Of a stretch of 34,488 nucleotides of DNA, positions 148 to 34,291 are shown one piece after another. The notes beneath the pieces were generated by a model. The model was not told the origin of the DNA and ran no database searches. It was given only the letters and a program-made list of their open reading frames with translations. This stretch comes from Rhodoblastus acidophilus (lineage in GTDB: Bacteria > Pseudomonadota > Alphaproteobacteria > Rhizobiales > Beijerinckiaceae). The position numbers and the translations under genes are program-made. The stretch lies in contig NZ_JAOQNX010000044.1 in the NCBI RefSeq assembly GCF_025961575.1, forward strand, positions 1 through 34,488, given 5' to 3'. Every line of letters begins with the position of its first letter. Positions within the stretch are counted from its first letter, which is position 1.

Positions 148-621
148 CTAGTCGTAATAGCCCACGCCGCAGGCGTAATCGGCGTTCACCCGGGTCACGA
201 ATGAGGTTTTGTGGGCCGGTTTCGGGTCGGTCGGCTTGCCGAAGAGATAGGTGACTTCGGTGATCACGCCTTCCTTCTGCCCGGCGGCGTAGATCTCCTC
301 GCCATAGGCCTTGCCGGTCTCGTCCTTGAGCGCCCGCACGTCCGTGCCGAGCAGGTCCTTGGCGTTGACATTGCCCTGGGCGACGAATTTCCCGTCGCCG
401 ACATTGAAGCAGAACACATAGATATTGCCGGTCATGCCGGTCAAAAATTTGCCTCGGCCCGCATTGAACTCTTCAAAAGCGTGCTTGCTGTCGGAGGTCA
501 CGTCGGCGGCGGCCGTCATGAGCATGGCCTTGGCGATATATTTGTCGGCGGGATGAGCGAAAGCCATGGGCGAAAGCGCCAGGAGCGCGCCAGACGCCGC
601 CGCAAGGATGTTTTTGCGCAA
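148..621 (-). CDS. Secreted single Cache domain protein
   Basis: The likely start is a TTG at 619-621, because GGAGG (minus strand, 627-631) lies five bases upstream; the ATG at 652-654 has no comparable site. This gives about 157 residues. The N-terminus is a signal peptide: RK, a hydrophobic stretch, then cleavage after AFA near residue 23. The remainder resembles a small single Cache domain (sCache_2 type), with the typical GKF(L)-like, NVNAKDLLGTD and VTYLFGKP segments and a C-terminal YACGVGYYD. Cache domains bind small ligands outside the cytoplasm, usually within receptors; here there is no signalling domain, so it probably acts as a free periplasmic binding protein. The ligand is unknown. 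It lies 120 bp beyond the thioesterase gene and probably has its own promoter. Confidence 0.75.
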   Translation of the reverse strand: MRKNILAAASGALLALSPMAFAHPADKYIAKAMLMTAAADVTSDSKHAFEEFNAGRGKFLTGMTGNIYVFCFNVGDGKFVAQGNVNAKDLLGTDVRALKDETGKAYGEEIYAAGQKEGVITEVTYLFGKPTDPKPAHKTSFVTRVNADYACGVGYYD

Positions 622-741
622 GATGTCCTCCGTGATCGCGTCGTCTCGTTGCAAGGCGGCTTTTCCAGCCGCGCTCTGGGACTTTAACGCGAGACGGAGC
701 GGGCCGGCAGGGCCGCGATCCTTATTTAGCTTTGAGAAACG

Positions 742-1191
742 TCAGCGCAGGCCGGCGGCGGCGAAAACCTCGTCCTCGGATTCGACGACCTCGAAGGCGG
801 AGCGGACGTCCTCGTGGATCGGGATGGAGCGCCCGGTCGCGATATTGACGAAGGTCCACAGGGTTTCGGCGCGGGCGAGGACGTGCGGGCGCTCGCCCCG
901 TCGCACGAACAAAGTGCGGCGCGGCGAGGTCCGCTCGCTCAGTCCAGCGATCCAGGTGTAGATGGCGATTTCGTCATGCAGCATCGCCGGGCGCAGATAT
1001 TCGATCGTGTGCGAGCGCACGAACCAGGAGGCGCCGAGGTCGAGATAGCGCTGCATCGGCCAGCCCTGAGCGCAGGAATGCTTGATGGCGACCTCCTCCA
1101 TCCAGCGCAGATATTCCTGGTTGTTGACGTGGCGGTGGGCGTCGATGGCCTCGGCGCCCACAAGAATGTCCTTCTGGTAAATTCTCGCCAT
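742..1191 (-). CDS. Acyl-CoA thioesterase, 4HBT hotdog family
   Basis: The 149-residue protein has the 4-hydroxybenzoyl-CoA thioesterase (YbgC-like) hotdog pattern. The segment DAHRHVNNQEYLRWMEE (residues about 17-33) matches the family motif D..GHVNN..Y..W, and the middle (YLRPAMLHDEIAIYTWI) matches the central strand region. The family hydrolyses acyl-CoA thioesters in the cytoplasm; the substrate cannot be told from sequence. It starts 6 bp after the cowN stop on the same strand, so it is very likely co-transcribed with cowN and may share its regulation. No link between this enzyme class and CO protection is known to me. Confidence 0.85.
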   Translation of the reverse strand: MARIYQKDILVGAEAIDAHRHVNNQEYLRWMEEVAIKHSCAQGWPMQRYLDLGASWFVRSHTIEYLRPAMLHDEIAIYTWIAGLSERTSPRRTLFVRRGERPHVLARAETLWTFVNIATGRSIPIHEDVRSAFEVVESEDEVFAAAGLR

Positions 1192-1197
1192 GAGCGC

Positions 1198-1494
1198 TCA
1201 AAAACACTCTTCTTCGAGCGTCTTCAGATCCTTGAGCGCCTGGTCGTCGTCATGGTCCTCGAACAGTTCGACCATGTAATAGACATGCGAGTGCAGCAGC
1301 AGCAGCTTGTCGGTGATGGAGTTCTCACCGGCCTCGATGGCGGCGAGGCGCGCCTTGAACCGGTCCCAGAAGGCGTTGCCGGTCTCGGGATTGTCGATGT
1401 AGCGGCGCAGATGCGTGAGCACGCGCTGCATATTGCCTTCGAAATCGATGTCCAAAAAGCTCACGTAGCGGTCGGGCTGGGCGGCGGCGTTCAT
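1198..1494 (-). CDS. cowN: N2-fixation sustaining protein CowN
   Basis: The start is ATG at 1492-1494, preceded by GGAG on the minus strand; the reading frame stays open upstream to 1551 but has no better start. The 98-residue protein shows the CowN pattern: [13 protein letters not shown] near the N-terminus, [11 protein letters not shown] in the middle, then [15 protein letters not shown] and a C-terminal [12 protein letters not shown]. CowN is a small cytoplasmic protein that protects nitrogenase from inhibition by carbon monoxide (known from Rhodospirillum rubrum and later biochemistry). Its presence implies that the host fixes nitrogen, although no nif genes lie in this window. The gene immediately upstream encodes an RcoM-like CO sensor, a pairing that fits CO-induced expression. 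No convincing sigma54 promoter was found upstream. Confidence 0.9.
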
Positions 1495-1573
1495 GATCGT
1501 CTCCGAAACTGGATTTTCGCCAGTAAGACCTGAGCTTTTCCGCGGGCGCAACGGCCAACACGCGACCGGCGAT

Positions 1574-1609
1574 GCGCTTGCACGAGCGGTCGCGTGCTTG
1601 AATAAACGG
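1574..1609. promoter_or_regulatory. Direct repeats upstream of cowN, candidate LytTR operator
   Basis: Two copies of GNGCTTGNANNANCGG start at 1574 and 1594, exactly 20 bp apart, in the 120-bp gap between the rcoM-like gene and cowN. GCTTG is identical in both and a reversed GCAAGC follows at 1609-1614. LytTR proteins typically bind paired direct repeats about two helical turns apart, so the spacing fits the neighbouring regulator. A GCACG-N8-CGTGC inverted repeat overlaps the region and could be an alternative reading. Assignment to the regulator is inference. Confidence 0.4.
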
Positions 1610-1614
1610 CAAGC

Positions 1615-2334
1615 CTAAAAAGCCAGCAGTTTTCGCAGGCGCTCCACCTGCCGGCGTCCCACCGGGATTTTGGTCGCCGCCTTGTCGGCCATGCGCAGGA
1701 ACCACGCGCCATCCAGGCGCTCGGCGGCGCGGACATGGCTGAGATTGACGATGTGGCGGCGATGGACGCGGACAAACAAAGCGGGATCGAGCCGCGCCTC
1801 CAGGCTCGCCAGCGAACGCGGGCAGAAGGCGGAAAAATTCAGCGTCAGCGCCTCGGCATAATGGCCCTGCGCCGACAAGGCGGCGACCTCGTCGATGTCG
1901 ATCAGCGCGGTGACGTCGCCCATGCCCTTCTGGATCGGCAGTTTGACCAGGAAGGGGCCGGGCTCGGCCTCGGGCTCCGGGGGCGCGGCGAGATCGCCGA
2001 GCATGAAGAACATTAAGACGGTGGCGGGGTCTTCGGGGCCGCCGCCGGTCGCCAGCGCGATGGCGCGGGCCAGCAGATTGCCCATGCGGGTGGCGACGAT
2101 CAGCGAGGCGCCGAGCGGGCTTTCGCCGGCGCTGGCGATCAGCCAGCCCACTTTGGCGCGGGCCTGGGGCGGGTGCAGCTCCAGAATGTCGACGCCGAAA
2201 AACGGGCCGTCGCCATCGCCCAAAAAGCTCTGGACGGCGCCGCTCGCCGCGCGGATGCGGCGGTCGCGGTCGAGCATGACGACGCCGAGAGGCAGGCGCT
2301 GGAGGCGATACTCGAAAGTCTGCGCCTCGCCCAC
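1615..2334 (-). CDS. rcoM: RcoM-like PAS-LytTR transcription regulator, probable haem CO sensor
   Basis: The 239-residue protein has an N-terminal PAS domain (about 5-110) and a C-terminal LytTR DNA-binding domain (about 140-239, with RVHRRHIVNLSHV). The PAS segment FFGVDILELHP closely resembles the haem-binding region of Burkholderia RcoM as I remember it. His54 and Met84 are 30 residues apart, the same distance as the RcoM-2 ligands His74 and Met104 that bind ferrous haem. The position matching the ferric-haem ligand Cys94 appears to be Leu74, assuming no gaps. RcoM activates genes on binding CO. The GTG start lies two bases after the serB stop, so translation is probably coupled, and cowN follows on the same strand. 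The function is strong inference; haem binding is not shown. Confidence 0.8.
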   Translation of the reverse strand: MGEAQTFEYRLQRLPLGVVMLDRDRRIRAASGAVQSFLGDGDGPFFGVDILELHPPQARAKVGWLIASAGESPLGASLIVATRMGNLLARAIALATGGGPEDPATVLMFFMLGDLAAPPEPEAEPGPFLVKLPIQKGMGDVTALIDIDEVAALSAQGHYAEALTLNFSAFCPRSLASLEARLDPALFVRVHRRHIVNLSHVRAAERLDGAWFLRMADKAATKIPVGRRQVERLRKLLAF

Positions 2335-2336
2335 CT

Positions 2337-3269
2337 TCAGCTCACGAAATCCTGGAGCCGGTAGCCTTGCGCGAACAGCAGCGCGGTGAGGTCGCTGTGG
2401 TCGATGCGCGCATGCGCCGCGCTCGCCACCGCCGGCTTGGCGTGGAAGGCGACGCCCAGGCCCGCGGCTTGGAGCATGTCGAGGTCGTTGGCCCCGTCTC
2501 CCACGGCAAGGGTCTTGTGCGGCGGCAGTTCGTGCTTTTGCGTCAATTCCTTCAGCGCCGCGAGCTTGGCCGCCTTGCCGAGCACCGGCTCCTCCACTTC
2601 GCCCAAGAATTTTCCATCGGCGATTTTGAGGACATTGGCGCGGTTTTCCTGAAAGCCGAGCTTTTCCGCGATCACCTCCGTGAACACGGTGAAGCCGCCC
2701 GACACCAGCGCGGCATAGGCGCCGTTCGCGCGCATGGTCATCACCAATTCGCGCGCGCCTGGCGTCAGCGTGATCCGGTTGGCGATGGCCTCGTCCACCA
2801 CGGAGGCGTCGAGGCCTTTCAGCAGGGCGACGCGTTTGCGCAGCGCCGGCTCGAAGGCGATCTCGCCGCGCATGGCGCGTTCGGTGATGTCGGCGACCTC
2901 ATCCTTGAGGCCGACGAAATCGGCGAGCTCGTCGATACATTCCTGGCCGATCATGGTCGAATCCATATCGGCCAAAAACAGCTTTTTCCGGCGCCCCGCG
3001 AGCGGCTGCACGAAAATGTCGACCGGCGCGCCGCCCAAGGCGAGACGCAGCACGTCGGCGGCGGCGCGGCAATAGGCGGCGTCGGCGAAAGAGCCGTCGG
3101 CGTGATTGCCATGGGCGGCGCCCGGTGCGAAAGGAATGTCCGCCGCGCGGCCCGGCGCGAGAAACTGCGGGTCGCGCGCGCCCGGCAGCCGGCGGGCGGC
3201 GGCCATGAGCAGATCGGGGCTGATCGTCTGGGCGTCGGCGGCGCCGACCAGGGTCGCGACATGGGTCAT
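2337..3269 (-). CDS. serB: Phosphoserine phosphatase SerB
   Basis: The 310-residue protein, taken from ATG 3267-3269, carries out the last step of serine biosynthesis, O-phospho-L-serine to serine, in the cytoplasm. HAD-family motifs are clear: DMDSTMIGQE with nucleophile Asp101 and acid/base Asp103, LVSGGFTVF as motif II, and GDGANDLDML as motif III. The first 90 residues are the usual N-terminal ACT-like extension. The frame is open to 3548, but upstream it runs antisense through miaA and looks non-coding. The start codon overlaps the probable miaA start on the other strand. No good ribosome-binding site is visible, so translation may be leaderless or start further in. Confidence 0.93.
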   Translation of the reverse strand: MTHVATLVGAADAQTISPDLLMAAARRLPGARDPQFLAPGRAADIPFAPGAAHGNHADGSFADAAYCRAAADVLRLALGGAPVDIFVQPLAGRRKKLFLADMDSTMIGQECIDELADFVGLKDEVADITERAMRGEIAFEPALRKRVALLKGLDASVVDEAIANRITLTPGARELVMTMRANGAYAALVSGGFTVFTEVIAEKLGFQENRANVLKIADGKFLGEVEEPVLGKAAKLAALKELTQKHELPPHKTLAVGDGANDLDMLQAAGLGVAFHAKPAVASAAHARIDHSDLTALLFAQGYRLQDFVS

Positions 3270-4236: not shown

Positions 4237-4608
4237 TCACCAACGGCGACCGCCGCCGCGATAGGCGCCGCCGCCGCGGTACGCGCCCCCGCGATAAACC
4301 GCGCCGCCGCGATAGGCCCCGCCGCGATAGACGGCGCCGCCGCGATAATAGCCGCCCCGGTAAACCGCTCCGCCGCGATAGACGGCGCCGCCGCCATAGA
4401 CCGGGCCGCGATAGACCCCGCCATAGCCGACGCCGTTGGGAATGCAGCCGCCGTAGGGGCCGCGGTGGAAGCCGATGCCGCAGCCTCCCGCCGTCAGCGT
4501 CACGTGCGACTGGACCTCCGGAACCGAAGACGGCGAAAAGGCTTCGGCGCCAGAGGCCGCCAGCGACATCGCGCCGACCAGGCCCAGCATGGCAAGAATT
4601 TTCCTCAA
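4237..4608 (-). CDS. Secreted YRGG-repeat protein with GCG_CRPN-type motif
   Basis: The start is TTG 4606-4608, because AAGGAGG (minus strand, 4617-4623) lies eight bases upstream; this gives 123 residues. Residues 1 to about 22 form a signal peptide ending in SGAEA. A GCGIGFHRGPYGGCIPN segment follows, matching the GCG...GGC.PN prefix described for small exported proteins of Rhizobiales. The C-terminal half consists of about ten short repeats of the form GAVYRGG, GAYRGG and GYYRGG, rich in Gly, Tyr and Arg with no Lys. The role is unknown; a low-complexity envelope or surface protein is likely. The two Cys of the prefix may form a disulphide. A good terminator follows. Confidence 0.8.
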   Translation of the reverse strand: MRKILAMLGLVGAMSLAASGAEAFSPSSVPEVQSHVTLTAGGCGIGFHRGPYGGCIPNGVGYGGVYRGPVYGGGAVYRGGAVYRGGYYRGGAVYRGGAYRGGAVYRGGAYRGGGAYRGGGRRW

Positions 4609-4616
4609 GGCTAAAT

Positions 4617-4623
4617 CCTCCTT
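4617..4623 (-). promoter_or_regulatory. Ribosome-binding site that fixes a TTG start
   Basis: AAGGAGG on the minus strand, eight bases before TTG 4606-4608. It is a full anti-Shine-Dalgarno match and makes the longer upstream frame (to 4767) unlikely to be translated. Confidence 0.8.
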
Positions 4624-4714
4624 GGCGTTGTGGATCAGCGGCGTCGGATGGCCCGCCGCCGACGTGAACCGGACCAAGACTAATCCATTCGCGGATTCGA
4701 CGCCACTTCCGCCG

Positions 4715-5197
4715 CTATTTCTTCGCTTTCGCCGCCTTGGGGACCTTTCCCGGCCAGCTGACCACACGCTCGACCTGCTCGTCGATGGAGAGATCGTCCT
4801 CGAGCGCGTAGACGCGGCCGATCACGGACACGCCGGCCTCGACCACGCTCTCGCTTCGGCCGCTCACCAGCGGGTGCCAGTGCGGCAGGTCCTGGCCCTG
4901 GCCGATCAGGCGATAGGCGCAGGTCGGCGGCAGCCAGGTCAGGCTGCCCGCGCTTTCGGCATCGAGGCGGATGCAATCCTTCACCCGGCGCGAGCGGTGG
5001 CCGTAATCCGCGCAGCGCGCCTTGGCCGCGTCGAGCAGCCGGCAGCCGACATCGGTGAAGTAGATCTCCCCGGTATCCTCGTCCTGAAGCTTGACCAGGC
5101 AGCAGCGCCCGCAGCCGTCGCACAGGCTCTCCCATTCGGATTTGGAAAAATCCGCGAGCGACCGGCCTGCCCAAAATTTCTCGCCCTTGCGCGCCAA
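4715..5197 (-). CDS. YcgN-family cysteine cluster protein (UPF0260)
   Basis: The 160-residue protein matches the YcgN/UPF0260 family. It begins FW-rich (GEKFWAGRSLADFSKSEWESLCDGCGRCC) and contains the clustered cysteines CDGCGRCC at about 26-33, with further Cys at GCRLLD, ARCADY, KDCIRL and PTCAYR. Such Cys clusters are thought to bind zinc or iron-sulphur; no reaction is established for the family. The start is TTG 5195-5197 with GGGG upstream, and no alternative start is visible in frame. It diverges from the PBP1A gene and is followed by the YRGG-repeat gene on the same strand. Confidence 0.88.
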   Translation of the reverse strand: MARKGEKFWAGRSLADFSKSEWESLCDGCGRCCLVKLQDEDTGEIYFTDVGCRLLDAAKARCADYGHRSRRVKDCIRLDAESAGSLTWLPPTCAYRLIGQGQDLPHWHPLVSGRSESVVEAGVSVIGRVYALEDDLSIDEQVERVVSWPGKVPKAAKAKK

Positions 5198-7611: not shown

Positions 7612-7670
7612 AGGAGGCTAAGCGGAGCTTCGTTGGGTGACCAACGAAGCTCTGCTTAGGCGCGCGCATG
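7612..7670 (+). promoter_or_regulatory. Hairpin between GGAGG and the kinase start codon
   Basis: CTAAGCGGAGCTTCGTTGG (7618-7636), loop GTGA (7637-7640) and its complement (7641-7659) form a 19-bp stem with one G·U wobble and a GNRA-type loop. GGAGG lies directly before it (7612-7616) and the ATG of the kinase 8 bases after it (7668). Folded, the hairpin would bring GGAGG to about nine bases from the ATG; linear, the distance is 51. There is no T-run, so it is not a classical terminator. The single mismatch is a wobble only on the plus-strand RNA, which supports an RNA role for that strand. Confidence 0.6.
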
Positions 7671-10466
7671 TTTTCGCGGCCGTCCGGCGCCTTCCTCCAG
7701 TCGATGATCCGCCTGCTGCGGGCGCCCAGCTGGCGGCGGGCCGCCTTCGGCGTCACCCTCGCCCTGCTGGCGGCGGCGCTGCATTTCGCCTGGCCGCCTG
7801 TGCGCATGGAGCCGCTGCCCAGCGCGGGCCTCGGCCCGTTCATCGCCATCGCCGCTCTGCTCGGGCGCCGCGCCGGCGGCTTGGCCGCCCTGTTCGTCGC
7901 GACCGCGCTGGTCATGCTGTTCGACGATCCCGACCCCGAGCCGTTTCGTCTCGTCGTCTATGTCGCCAAATGGCTGGCCGTGGTCCTGGTTGCCGATGTC
8001 GCGCACAACCTCTGGCTCCGCGCCGCCGAGAACGAACGCGTCAGGGCCGAGGAAGCCCGTCTGGCGCAGCAGCGGCTGGAGCTGGCGCTCGAATCCGGCG
8101 CGATCGGCACGTTCGAGGTCGATCTCTCCACCCACCACATGCGCCTCAACGAAAAACATCGTGAAATCTTCGGTTGGAGCAACGACCAGCTCGTCACCAC
8201 CGGCCTGATCGACACGCTGGTCGTTCCGGAGGACCTTCCGGGGCTGCAGGAGGCGCGGGCGCGGACCCTGAGCGGGAAGGAGCGCTTTCACGCGAAAATT
8301 CGCATCAGGCGCGCCAATGACGGCGCGTTGCGGCACGTCGAGACGCGGGGCGAAGCGGTTTTTGAAAACGGCGTTCCGGTGCGCGTGTTCGGCGCCACCC
8401 GCGACGTGACGGATGAGAGGGAGGCGGCCGCCTCGCTGGAAGAGCGTGCGCGGCTTTCGGAACAGAACCGCTCCAAGGCGGACGAACTGGTCCAGGCGCA
8501 AAAGGGCCTGGCGCTGGCGCTCGAGGCCGGCGCGATCGGCGTCGGCGAGCTCGACCTGCGCTCCGGCGTGGTCAAGGTCAACGACAAGCTGCGGAAGATC
8601 TACGGCCTGGGCGCCGGCCCCGTCATGCTGGACAGCCTCGACGGCCTTGTCGTGGCCGAGGACCGGACGGCATATTATGCGACGATCGCGCAGGCGCTCG
8701 ATCCGCGCGGCGCCGGTCAATGTGAACAGCGTTTTCGCATCCGCCGGCGAGACGACGACGCCGTGCGCTGGGTTTACACGCGCAGCCAGGTCTTTTTCGA
8801 AGATGGCGCCGCGGTCCGCGTCGTCGGCTTGATGCGCGACATCACCGACGAACGGGCGGCGGCGGCGATGTTGGAGGAAAAGGCGCGGCTGGCGCAACTG
8901 GATCGCGTCCGCGCCGAGGAGCTCGCGCGGGAGCGGCGCCGCCTCGAATTGGCGCTTGAAGCGGGCGCCATCGGGACCTTCGAAGTCGATCTGATCAGGG
9001 GCGATATTCACCTCAGCGAGAAACACCGGGAAATTTCCGGCTGGACCAGCGAGGAGCCCTTGCCGGTTGACATTATGGACGGAGATATGGTCGTCGAAGA
9101 GGACCGCGCTGTGCTCCAGGAGGCGCGGCTGGCCGCGTTGCGCGGAGACGGGCGCTACGCCGCGCAATTTCGCATTCGCCGCGCCAATGACGGCGCCCTC
9201 CGCTGGGTCGACACCCGTGGCCAGGTCTATTTCGAGGGCGATGCGCCGGCGCGCGTGTTCGGCGTCACCCGCGACATCACCGACGAGAGAGCCGCCGCCG
9301 CCGTCCTTCAGGAAAGGGCGCGGCTGGCGGAGCAATTGAGCGCGCTCGCCGAGGCGCTGCCGGGCGCCATCTATTCCTACGTCGGCGGCGCCGTGGGGCG
9401 CAGCCAGCGCGGCTTCGTCGCCTATGTCTCCTCCAATATCGAGCGGCTCCTGGGGTTTGCGCCCGCCGTCTTCGCGCGCGATATCGACAGTTTCCTGGCG
9501 CGTGTTCATCCCGACGATCTCCCGCGCGTGCGCGCCGCCGCCAAAATCTCCGCGCGCGACCTCGCGCTCTGGAATGTGGTGTTTCGCTACGATCACCCGG
9601 AAAGGGGCGAAATCTGGATCGAGGGCGACAGTCAGCCGACCCGCCGCGAGGATGGCGCCACGGTCTGGCACGGCTATTATCAGGACGTGACCGAGCGCGA
9701 AACCGCCGCCCGCGCGCTGGCGGACAGCGAGGCGCGGGTCCGCGCGCTCAAGGACGAACGTCTGGCGGCGCTGGAAAAGCTGGCGGCGCGCCTCGCCCAT
9801 GAGGTCAATCAGCCGCTCGCCGCCGCCGCGACCCTGCTGGCGGTCGCCCGCCGGCGGTTGACCCCGAACCTCCCGGATGACGACAGCCGCGCCGCCGGGG
9901 CCGAGGCGCTGAAAAAGGCGGCGCATCAGCTGTTGCGCGCCGGCCAGATCATCACCCGGGTGCGCGAATTCACGCAGCATGGCGAGGCGGACAAGGTGTT
10001 TCGCAGCGTCCACGAGACCATCCACGAAACCCTGGCCCAGCTCGAAGGGGACTTGAGTTTCTCCGGCTTCGCATTCGAGTTGCGTCTGGAGGCCGCCCGC
10101 GACCGCGTCCTCATCGACCGCCTGCAGATCGCGGCCGTCTTGACCAATCTGCTGCGCAACGCCGCACAGGCCGCCTTGCCCGGAGGGCGGCGCGCCATCG
10201 TCGTCGCCACCCGGAACCAATGGGACAGGATCGAGATTTCAATCATTGATTATGGCGCGGGAGTGTCGGAAGATGCCCGCCGCCATCTTTTTGATTTATT
10301 CTGGACCACCAAGGGATCGGGCATGGGCGTCGGTCTCGCCATGTCCAAGGCGATTGTGGAGGCCCATTACGGGACCATCTGGCTGCAGGACGATGCGGAG
10401 AAAACGGTGTTCACTTTCAGCCTTCCCTTGATGATTGCGGGCGACGATCCCCGGGAGACTCGATGA
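7668..10466 (+). CDS. Membrane-bound hybrid-free histidine kinase with four PAS domains
   Basis: The 932-residue sensor has about four N-terminal membrane segments (about 26-122, KdpD-like DUF4118 arrangement). Three similar PAS_3/PAC repeats follow at about 137-250, 278-395 and 424-540, each starting LELALEAGAIG and ending in a TRDITDER-type motif. A fourth, divergent PAS lies at about 556-685. The kinase core has the H-box LAHEVNQPLA with His711, N-box LLRNAAQAAL, G1 DYGAGVSED and G2 GSGMGVGLAM. The H-box is of the FixL/DctB type, but no FixL haem-binding pattern is seen in any PAS. The signal is unknown. The stop overlaps the response-regulator ATG (ATGA), so the two form an operon and a cognate pair. 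Confidence 0.92.
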   Translation: MFSRPSGAFLQSMIRLLRAPSWRRAAFGVTLALLAAALHFAWPPVRMEPLPSAGLGPFIAIAALLGRRAGGLAALFVATALVMLFDDPDPEPFRLVVYVAKWLAVVLVADVAHNLWLRAAENERVRAEEARLAQQRLELALESGAIGTFEVDLSTHHMRLNEKHREIFGWSNDQLVTTGLIDTLVVPEDLPGLQEARARTLSGKERFHAKIRIRRANDGALRHVETRGEAVFENGVPVRVFGATRDVTDEREAAASLEERARLSEQNRSKADELVQAQKGLALALEAGAIGVGELDLRSGVVKVNDKLRKIYGLGAGPVMLDSLDGLVVAEDRTAYYATIAQALDPRGAGQCEQRFRIRRRDDDAVRWVYTRSQVFFEDGAAVRVVGLMRDITDERAAAAMLEEKARLAQLDRVRAEELARERRRLELALEAGAIGTFEVDLIRGDIHLSEKHREISGWTSEEPLPVDIMDGDMVVEEDRAVLQEARLAALRGDGRYAAQFRIRRANDGALRWVDTRGQVYFEGDAPARVFGVTRDITDERAAAAVLQERARLAEQLSALAEALPGAIYSYVGGAVGRSQRGFVAYVSSNIERLLGFAPAVFARDIDSFLARVHPDDLPRVRAAAKISARDLALWNVVFRYDHPERGEIWIEGDSQPTRREDGATVWHGYYQDVTERETAARALADSEARVRALKDERLAALEKLAARLAHEVNQPLAAAATLLAVARRRLTPNLPDDDSRAAGAEALKKAAHQLLRAGQIITRVREFTQHGEADKVFRSVHETIHETLAQLEGDLSFSGFAFELRLEAARDRVLIDRLQIAAVLTNLLRNAAQAALPGGRRAIVVATRNQWDRIEISIIDYGAGVSEDARRHLFDLFWTTKGSGMGVGLAMSKAIVEAHYGTIWLQDDAEKTVFTFSLPLMIAGDDPRETR

Positions 10467-11122
10467 ACGGGGCGGCGTCCGTTTACATCGTCGATGACGA
10501 CGCCGCGATCCGCGAGTCCCTGACCCTGCTGCTGGAGACCGAGGGCCTGAACGCGCGGGCCTTCTCCAGCGCGCTCGAATTCCTCGCCGCGCCGCTGGGA
10601 GAGGGACCGGGCTGCGTGGTGACGGACCTGCGCATGGCCGGCATGTCCGGCATGGAGCTGCTGGCGCAGATCAGGCAATCGCCGTCGCCCCTGCCGGTCG
10701 TGGTCATCACCGCCTATGGCGATGTGCGGCTGGCGGTGGAGGCGATGAAGCTCGGCGCCAGCGATTTCCTGGAAAAACCCTATTCCGAGACGGCGTTCGT
10801 CGCGGCGGTGCGCGGCGCGCTGGACGCGGCGGCGGACGCCGAGGCGCGCGCCAGCGACCGGCGTGAAATCGAGCAGCGCTTCAAGGCGCTGACGCCGCCC
10901 GAGCGCCGGGTGCTCGCCGGCCTGCTCGAAGGCAAGCTCAACAAGACCGCCGCCTTCGAAATGGGGGTGAGCCTGCGCACCGTGGAGGCGCTGCGCGCCA
11001 GCGTCATGGCCAAGCTCGGCGCCGATTGCCTGTCCGACCTGGTGCGCAGCACCATGCGCGCCGGGCTCGACCGCTTCATTTCCGCCGGATCAGACGAGAC
11101 AGGCCCATCTCCGCGGCCGTGA
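10463..11122 (+). CDS. FixJ/NarL-type response regulator
   Basis: The 219-residue protein has a receiver domain with the acidic pair DDD (11-13), phospho-acceptor Asp55 in VVTDLRM, Thr83 and Lys105 (KPY). The C-terminal LuxR-type helix-turn-helix (about 148-205) includes LTPPERRVLAGLLEGKLNK, a FixJ signature, followed by RTVEALRASVMAKLGA. FixJ proteins usually have TVE-HR at that point, so the recognition helix differs. It starts inside the stop of the kinase gene (4-bp overlap). Its final 47 bp run antisense to the end of murJ. The target genes are not evident; nearby cell-wall genes are candidates. Confidence 0.92.
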   Translation: MNGAASVYIVDDDAAIRESLTLLLETEGLNARAFSSALEFLAAPLGEGPGCVVTDLRMAGMSGMELLAQIRQSPSPLPVVVITAYGDVRLAVEAMKLGASDFLEKPYSETAFVAAVRGALDAAADAEARASDRREIEQRFKALTPPERRVLAGLLEGKLNKTAAFEMGVSLRTVEALRASVMAKLGADCLSDLVRSTMRAGLDRFISAGSDETGPSPRP

Positions 11123-33538: not shown

Positions 33539-34291
33539 TCATTCTAAAGGATCGCCGGTCAAATTGAGCCCCGCGACCATTTTGCGGGCCTCTTCCGGCA
33601 GCTTGGCGTTTTCTGAATAGTGCCGCGCCATTGCCGTGGACTTTTGCCCCAGTACGTCGGCAATCGTCCGGTCATCCGCGCCGGCCTCGCGTAGAAGCGT
33701 ACCCAGCGTGTGACGCAGCCCGTGGGGAGTGAGGCCCGGCTCAACCAAGCCTTCGGCCTCCAGCCGTTTCTTGAACGTGCGCCATGACGCGTTGAAGCCA
33801 GTCTCTGTCCACGGCTCGCCGTGTGAGTTGACGGCGATCTGAACCGCGTCACTCTCGGGGCGCTCAGCGAGGGCGCGCTTCAAGATCGGATGAAGGGGCA
33901 GGCAGACGGGAACGCCGCGCTTCGAAGTGCGGACAGTGATTCCCCCATCCTTTAGCGCCGAGAGCGTGACTTTCAGGAAGTCACCTTTCCGCAGGCCCCC
34001 ACACATGGCGAGCGCCAACGGGAGGCGCAGTTGGGGCGGCGCGCGTTCGATGACCACGCGGCGCTCAGCCTCAGACCATGGCCGATTCGCCACCTCCTCT
34101 GAGGTGTTCCGGATTTTCTTGACGCGCTCCGCGAGCGGGTTTTCCTTGATCCATCCCCGGTCCTTGGCGAACAGCAGGAGGATAGAAAGAACCGTGACCG
34201 TGTAATTTGCGAGCCAGCGCCCCCGCTTGGGGAAAATTTTCTTGTCCCGGAGGGCGAAGATGAAAGGCCGGTCCATCTTTGCGAGTGGCAT
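33539..34291 (-). CDS. Tyrosine-type site-specific integrase, probably 5'-truncated
   Basis: The 250-residue product has the catalytic set of tyrosine recombinases: Arg in CGGLRKGD, HGLRH (about 203-207), and a terminal HYSENA Tyr. An N-terminal SAM-like core-binding region (about 20-75, RGWIKENPLAERV) precedes it. The frame remains open upstream to about 34350, reading ISASRLRQRAVKPLRDM, which looks like the missing integrase sequence but has no start codon and runs into a TGA. This is where an insertion sequence begins, so the gene was probably cut by it and the ATG at 34291 may be only an internal Met. Treat as a likely pseudogene. Confidence 0.75.
   Translation of the reverse strand: MPLAKMDRPFIFALRDKKIFPKRGRWLANYTVTVLSILLLFAKDRGWIKENPLAERVKKIRNTSEEVANRPWSEAERRVVIERAPPQLRLPLALAMCGGLRKGDFLKVTLSALKDGGITVRTSKRGVPVCLPLHPILKRALAERPESDAVQIAVNSHGEPWTETGFNASWRTFKKRLEAEGLVEPGLTPHGLRHTLGTLLREAGADDRTIADVLGQKSTAMARHYSENAKLPEEARKMVAGLNLTGDPLE

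Follow-up and report, generated by a model that had tools for sequence, protein, structure and literature searches.

Which signal governs cowN, the gene whose product protects nitrogenase from carbon monoxide (CO), in the purple non-sulfur bacterium Rhodoblastus acidophilus? The question is raised by a 34,488-nucleotide stretch of its genome (contig NZ_JAOQNX010000044.1 of assembly GCF_025961575.1; the whole stretch is called the window hereafter), in which cowN lies beside the gene of a regulator that has the architecture of the CO sensor RcoM, a PAS sensor domain followed by a LytTR DNA-binding domain. We consider it likely that the regulator is an RcoM-like one-component sensor with altered haem ligands, which serves cowN as a CO switch. 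The sensor kind and the pairing of rcoM with cowN were known already, as was the role of CowN (PMC8047169; this and the other papers are cited for excerpts of their text), and because the pairing was known the surprise is limited. The conserved promoter layout and the clade of ligand-variant regulators described below are new as far as could be checked.

The elements of the putative switch in the window are the following.

1615-2334, minus strand: gene of the RcoM-type PAS-LytTR regulator, 239 residues, GTG start (Pfam LytTR 66.8 bits)
1198-1494, minus strand: cowN, 98 residues, nitrogenase protection from CO (Pfam PF20543 115.5 bits; NCBIfam NF033689 108.5 bits)
1559-1609, minus strand: predicted operator, three direct repeats with a 20-bp step (1609-1599, 1589-1579 and 1569-1559)
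1549-1551, minus strand: TTG of the presumed cowN -35 element, 7 bp past the third repeat

The identity of CowN is certain, as judged from two curated sequence models whose cut-offs (27 bits for Pfam and 48 bits for NCBIfam) are both exceeded. The host genome (80 contigs, estimated to be 100% complete) carries nifHD and anfHD of the molybdenum and iron nitrogenases, above cut-off, and thus has the enzyme that CowN protects. At the same time, no match to the large-subunit model of molybdenum CO dehydrogenase or to the model of nickel CO dehydrogenase was found in the host genome. The presence of nitrogenase genes together with the lack of a CO dehydrogenase match makes the system look like a switch for protection from CO. 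The host genome also gave no close match to the CO sensor CooA; two matches to a CooA-like protein (the name is our own, here and below) were 26% identical, with E values of 6.5e-6 and 3.3e-5.

The regulator gene accompanies cowN

The pairing was followed in 32 named loci, which were gathered by one scan of a genome collection that used a six-row alignment and two peptide patterns and which form a biased sample that does not include Rhodospirillum rubrum. In 30 of these loci cowN lies downstream of the regulator on the same strand. The matched ends of the two genes are at most 224 bp apart in 26 loci and 1.3-1.75 kb apart in L036, L038, L044 and L048, and the available flanking DNA of L030 and L049 held no cowN. 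Among 100 relatives, the own genome included, the full-length regulator was found in four, namely the four Rhodoblastus genomes that have cowN together with the regulator, and 15 further regulator matches covered mostly the LytTR part. A search of 398 genomes sampled from the phylum gave a full-length match in six, and the four regulator matches outside the class had no cowN within 1.5 kb, so that the link between regulator and cowN was seen within the class only. The pairing itself is not new, since rcoM next to cowN is already in print for Rhodospirillum rubrum (PMC4257681, citing Kerby and Roberts 2011), the likeness to the window being one at the level of gene pairing.

In Gluconacetobacter, too, the gene of a CO sensor stands beside cowN (PMC8047169). 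This sensor, CooA, is, unlike the window regulator, a protein of the unrelated CRP family with a palindromic site. Of 15 distinct cowN loci above cut-off, seven had an RcoM-type regulator, six had a CooA-like CRP protein and two (L011 and L016) had neither within 1.5 kb. The occurrence of a CooA-like protein in the place of the regulator suggests CO as the common signal. It counts against an alternative explanation, according to which a haem held by His54 of the regulator senses oxygen, nitric oxide (NO) or the redox state, and cowN is switched on when conditions suit nitrogenase and not by CO. This alternative would fit the report that Gluconacetobacter makes CowN under all nitrogen-fixing conditions (PMC8047169).

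A predicted operator upstream of cowN

The published operator of RcoM-1 consists of three TTCNNGCA direct repeats that are 12-13 bp apart (PMC11347149). A three-repeat layout of this sort was found in the window in a degenerate copy, with units at 20-bp steps, and similar triples with steps of 20-21 bp are present upstream of ompW and coxM in Paraburkholderia aromaticivorans. When steps of 14-26 bp were compared in 27 gaps, the same gaps from which the repeat unit had first been read by eye, the 20-bp step was best with a mean two-site score of 17.5, versus 12.0-14.1 for the others. Scanning both strands of the 34-kb window with a cross-genus matrix of 23 sites, all of them from outside Rhodoblastus, gave 1609-1559 as the best 51-mer (24.1 bits), followed by this array displaced by one repeat (15.7 bits) and then by an unrelated place with 4.9, whereas the maximum in 60 simulated windows was 18.9 bits. 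The best site lay in the gap in all 13 of the close-pair loci that were scanned with their own group excluded from the matrix, L047 being the weakest with 15.6 bits. In the four loci that have DNA between the regulator and cowN, the best site was immediately upstream of cowN (L036 was weaker, with 19.5). For L015, L038, L044 and L048 the matrix contained Azospirillum sites, and the scores of these loci are not independent. The matrix scan revealed no operator site in L030, which lacks cowN (best score 4.6).

Moreover, in sites picked by the repeats alone, the third repeat is followed by a TTG at a distance of 7 bp in 29 of 31 cases and of 8 bp in the remaining two. A repeat pattern, designed with the window site known, was also run through the whole genome; its sole match with zero mismatches was the window site, and one other place matched with one mismatch. 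With up to two mismatches allowed, this pattern had 17 matches and the reversed control 16. Patterns for NifA, CooA and full sigma-54 sites were found in none of the 27 gaps. The loose GG-N10-GC pattern matched many gaps, which is little informative in GC-rich DNA.

The predicted operator is laid out in keeping with the published RcoM-1 site, and its position fits activation from a place upstream of the -35 element (PMC11347149). We conclude from these sequence comparisons that the regulator adjoining cowN very probably controls cowN. The corresponding proposal of the preliminary description has thus gained support from a pairing kept in many genera, from the RcoM-like operator and from the TTG fixed downstream of it. 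Both the RcoM-like operator and the LytTR domain argue against the sensing of oxygen, NO or redox state. A literature search showed no published cowN operator for RcoM, key papers lying outside that search, and novelty is not claimed for the operator. In addition, triple-repeat sites were seen near the starts of two RcoM-type genes, from which they face away (L064 1381-1431 and L065 1372-1422, minus strand); these outward-facing sites suggest divergent targets.

Domains and fold of the regulator

The comparison of the window regulator with RcoM-1 and RcoM-2 of Paraburkholderia xenovorans was made through an RcoM-like protein whose gene is linked to cox genes in P. aromaticivorans (L013). Over 254 columns, with both domains aligned, the regulator has 29% identity to this protein. 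RcoM itself is a haem sensor with nanomolar CO affinity and CO-dependent activation. One cox gene beside the P. aromaticivorans gene has the form I motif AYRCSFR, and we take AYxCSFR to be the motif of CO dehydrogenase. The PAS_4 score of the regulator was 21.1 bits, slightly below the Pfam cut-off of 23.1. The AlphaFold model of the regulator has a PAS fold (mean predicted local distance difference test 80.6, predicted template modelling score 0.48), the arrangement of the domains in the model being unsure. The haem proteins FixL, FG214 and DosP were among the best Foldseek PAS matches of the model, and a sequence search for relatives of the regulator among solved structures found no RcoM structure.

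Two side observations concern proteins of this kind. Residue 171 in the LytTR domain of the regulator is a Cys that is nearly invariant (at least 90%) in a 27-row alignment and might serve as a redox site beyond the PAS domain. On a Caballeronia SBC1 plasmid (L014, 3950-4752) the RcoM-like match is split into two overlapping segments, and the gene may have a frame break.

Haem-ligand positions

Regulators were aligned in sets of 8, 37 and 41 rows, and the ligand numbering was carried over via the P. aromaticivorans protein, whose His75, Cys95 and Met105 are His74, Cys94 and Met104 of RcoM plus one. His74 and Cys94 are taken here to be ligands of RcoM, and the position of Met104 comes from a reference title. 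The His74 column falls on His54 of the regulator and holds His in 37 of 37 rows, with variable flanking sequence; in these alignments His54 is at the position of the proximal ligand of RcoM.

The preliminary description had equated His54 and Met84, which are separated by 30 residues, with His74 and Met104. Both residues are present at that distance, and in the PAS alignment with RcoM homologues His54 stays at the ligand column, but Met84 is displaced from it. In AlphaFold models strand G spans residues 76-82 of the window regulator and 86-92 of an RcoM from Oxalobacteraceae, and its third residue is Leu78 in the former and residue 88, the equivalent of Met104, in the latter. Met84 lies six residues past Leu78, in the predicted turn between strands G and H and before strand H. 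The alignments and the two models thus rule out Met84 as the homologue of Met104. The spacing of 30 residues between His54 and Met84 is a coincidence, because the loop is six residues shorter: the distance from the His to the Met84 column is 30 in 4 of the 41 rows, all of them from Rhodoblastus, and 31 in 12 other rows with Met there, and the distance to the Met104 column ranges from 24 to 30 across the 41 rows.

Several findings weigh against a CO switch of the RcoM kind. In the alignments of 8, 37 and 41 regulators the Met104 column falls on Leu78. The column of Cys94, the ferric ligand of RcoM, had been suggested to hold Leu but falls in a gap in the alignments of 8 and 37 regulators (in 35 of the 37 rows, including that of the window regulator). 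When DosP is added by profile alignment, it has an Ile in the His54 column; His54 is therefore not at the place of the DosP haem ligand. Histidine is common at such a PAS position, and PAS domains without haem, e.g., those of NifL (with flavin adenine dinucleotide) and HIF, are also among the Foldseek matches. As to the locus, seven other cowN genomes among the 100 relatives are without the regulator, and L017 has a regulator-cowN pair without such an operator. Judged by the published motif as it stands, the window site has 12 of 18 matches (counted by hand) and is not clearly the best within the first 6 kb, the top places there having 13.

Since the Met104 column holds Leu78 and Cys94 meets a gap, the distal haem ligand, if there is any, must be a different one from the ligand in the RcoM proteins studied so far. 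Because of these changed positions we say that the regulator would work like RcoM and do not file it as a strict RcoM. The loss of two RcoM ligands would also fit a PAS domain that holds no haem and senses another ligand, the likeness to RcoM then reflecting shared DNA binding only. The weak PAS similarity, with PAS_4 below its cut-off, and the frequency of His at such a position are in line with this explanation. However, His is kept in every one of the 37 regulators while its surroundings vary, and the alignment with RcoM extends over both domains, so that we regard a regulator without haem as improbable. The alternative of a haem that senses oxygen, NO or the redox state is favoured by the absence of Met104, the ferrous ligand of RcoM that CO can replace, and by the closest PAS folds, which include those of two oxygen sensors, FixL and DosP, and that of the redox-responsive FG214 (PMC13060918). 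Set against the RcoM-like operator and the CooA-like proteins in other cowN loci, it appears unlikely, if somewhat less so than the regulator without haem.

The window regulator resembles RcoM-1 and RcoM-2 in combining PAS and LytTR domains in one protein, in the His74 column, in the three-repeat operator and in a CO-related target. Unlike these proteins, it has a Leu (residue 78) in place of Met104, lacks Cys94 and has a shorter loop before strand G, and at the window the operator has steps of 20 bp instead of 21 bp and the target is cowN instead of cox. CoxC of Afipia carboxidovorans is similar in its LytTR domain, three repeats and CO response, whereas it differs from the window regulator in being a repressor with a membrane MHYT sensor domain (PMC11347149).

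A clade of ligand variants

A tree of 41 regulators (39 of them different) was built with the ligand columns excluded. The window regulator falls within one clade of 19 members (support 100/99), which come from Rhodoblastus (4), Magnetospirillum (3), Xanthobacter (5), Roseospira, Pararhodospirillum, Azospirillum (2), two metagenome-assembled genomes and one further genome identical to one of these two. At the Met104 column, 13 of the 19 clade members have Leu or Ile and the other six have Met; outside the clade, Met occupies it in 21 of the 22 regulators. At column 84 the clade has Met in 16 rows and Phe in three, and all three Phe rows have Met104. Column 108 is Met in 19/19 clade rows and in 13/22 others, and residue 110 is His in 15 of the 19 and Phe in the four Rhodoblastus rows. 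Over all 41 rows, Met stands at column 104 only in 24, at column 84 only in 13, at both in three (R. sphagnicola, Azospirillum halopraeferens and Azospirillum TSO22-1) and at neither in one.

The pattern of these columns suggests that a haem ligand has moved. The exchange between columns 84 and 104 is represented by 3-4 independent differing pairs on the tree, too few for significance, and the deep part of the tree is uncertain owing to long branches. We propose only tentatively, and as a possibility that we hold to be rather doubtful, that the cowN-serving clade lost the redox-switch Cys and that its CO-replaceable ligand moved from the Met104 position in strand G to Met84 in the G-H turn or to Met108, which lies in the last strand, via forms with Met at both columns. 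The outcome would be a protection-only sensor without a redox switch, in a host without a recognised CO dehydrogenase. In Roseospira marina, molybdenum hydroxylase genes related to those of CO dehydrogenase were seen near the regulator (L029 875-4843, minus strand). As a candidate CO dehydrogenase beside a clade member they were rejected, having scored 698 versus the cut-off of 991 bits and lacking AYxCSFR.

Neighbouring genes

Two further genes flank the regulator and cowN in the window.

2337-3269, minus strand: serB, phosphoserine phosphatase (NCBIfam SerB 226 bits, cut-off 144)
742-1191, minus strand: 4HBT-type thioesterase gene (Pfam 4HBT_2 60 bits, cut-off 25.5)

The order of the four genes and the gaps of 2 bp between serB and the regulator and of 6 bp between cowN and the thioesterase gene, as previously described, are borne out by the gene calls, and such gaps would fit a single CO-response unit made up of all four genes. 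However, the thioesterase gene adjoins cowN in this genome only and in none of the 32 named loci, and the two of ten other Rhodoblastus genomes that have an orthologue carry it and cowN on separate contigs. The regulator of R. acidophilus DSM 142 is 95% identical, yet there the next recognised gene after cowN is a Cache gene (L020 7257-7745) and not the thioesterase gene. The link of serB is likewise limited: it adjoins the regulator in the window and in three other Rhodoblastus loci, whereas none was found in the remaining 29 of the named loci. A four-gene CO-response unit is therefore highly improbable, and the functional cassette proposed earlier dissolves into links that look incidental and are limited to the genus (serB) or to this genome (thioesterase). 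Both genes were rejected as parts of the system. We judge that serB does not belong to the regulator-cowN system, and the thioesterase gene would at best be carried along on the cowN transcript.

A homologue of the Cache gene was not found in the Rhodoblastus loci L021 and L022 in the same search. In genome G005 (L085) the match to the thioesterase orthologue has one internal TAG, and this copy may be broken. Elsewhere in the window, a small protein with a weak Cache-domain match, the homologue of the product of the Cache gene in DSM 142, is encoded at 148-654 (minus strand), and the following were noted by eye: a short open reading frame with repeated RGGAVYRGG-like units (4237-4767, minus strand), a long protein resembling a sensor kinase with repeated PAS-like segments and with a response regulator next to it (7668-11122, plus strand) and, at the right end of the window, a translation resembling a phage-type integrase (33539-34291, minus strand).

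Implications for the protection of nitrogenase

We infer that the regulator carries haem, responds to CO and acts as an activator with cowN as its main target. In this mechanism CO would bind to a ferrous haem that His54 holds in the PAS domain, and the LytTR domain would then bind to the three direct repeats ending 7 bp before the -35 element of cowN. The bound LytTR domain would activate transcription of cowN, and CowN would keep nitrogenase turnover going under CO.

A switch of this kind would provide a testable rule for the guarding of nitrogenase against CO in several alphaproteobacterial nitrogen fixers, with one sensor, one promoter and one protective gene. At the same time, the members of the clade are natural relatives of RcoM, some of them without Cys94 and Met104, and may be useful for learning how RcoM holds haem and CO tightly. 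Such relatives would also bear on the CO scavengers based on RcoM that are described in PMC11160397.

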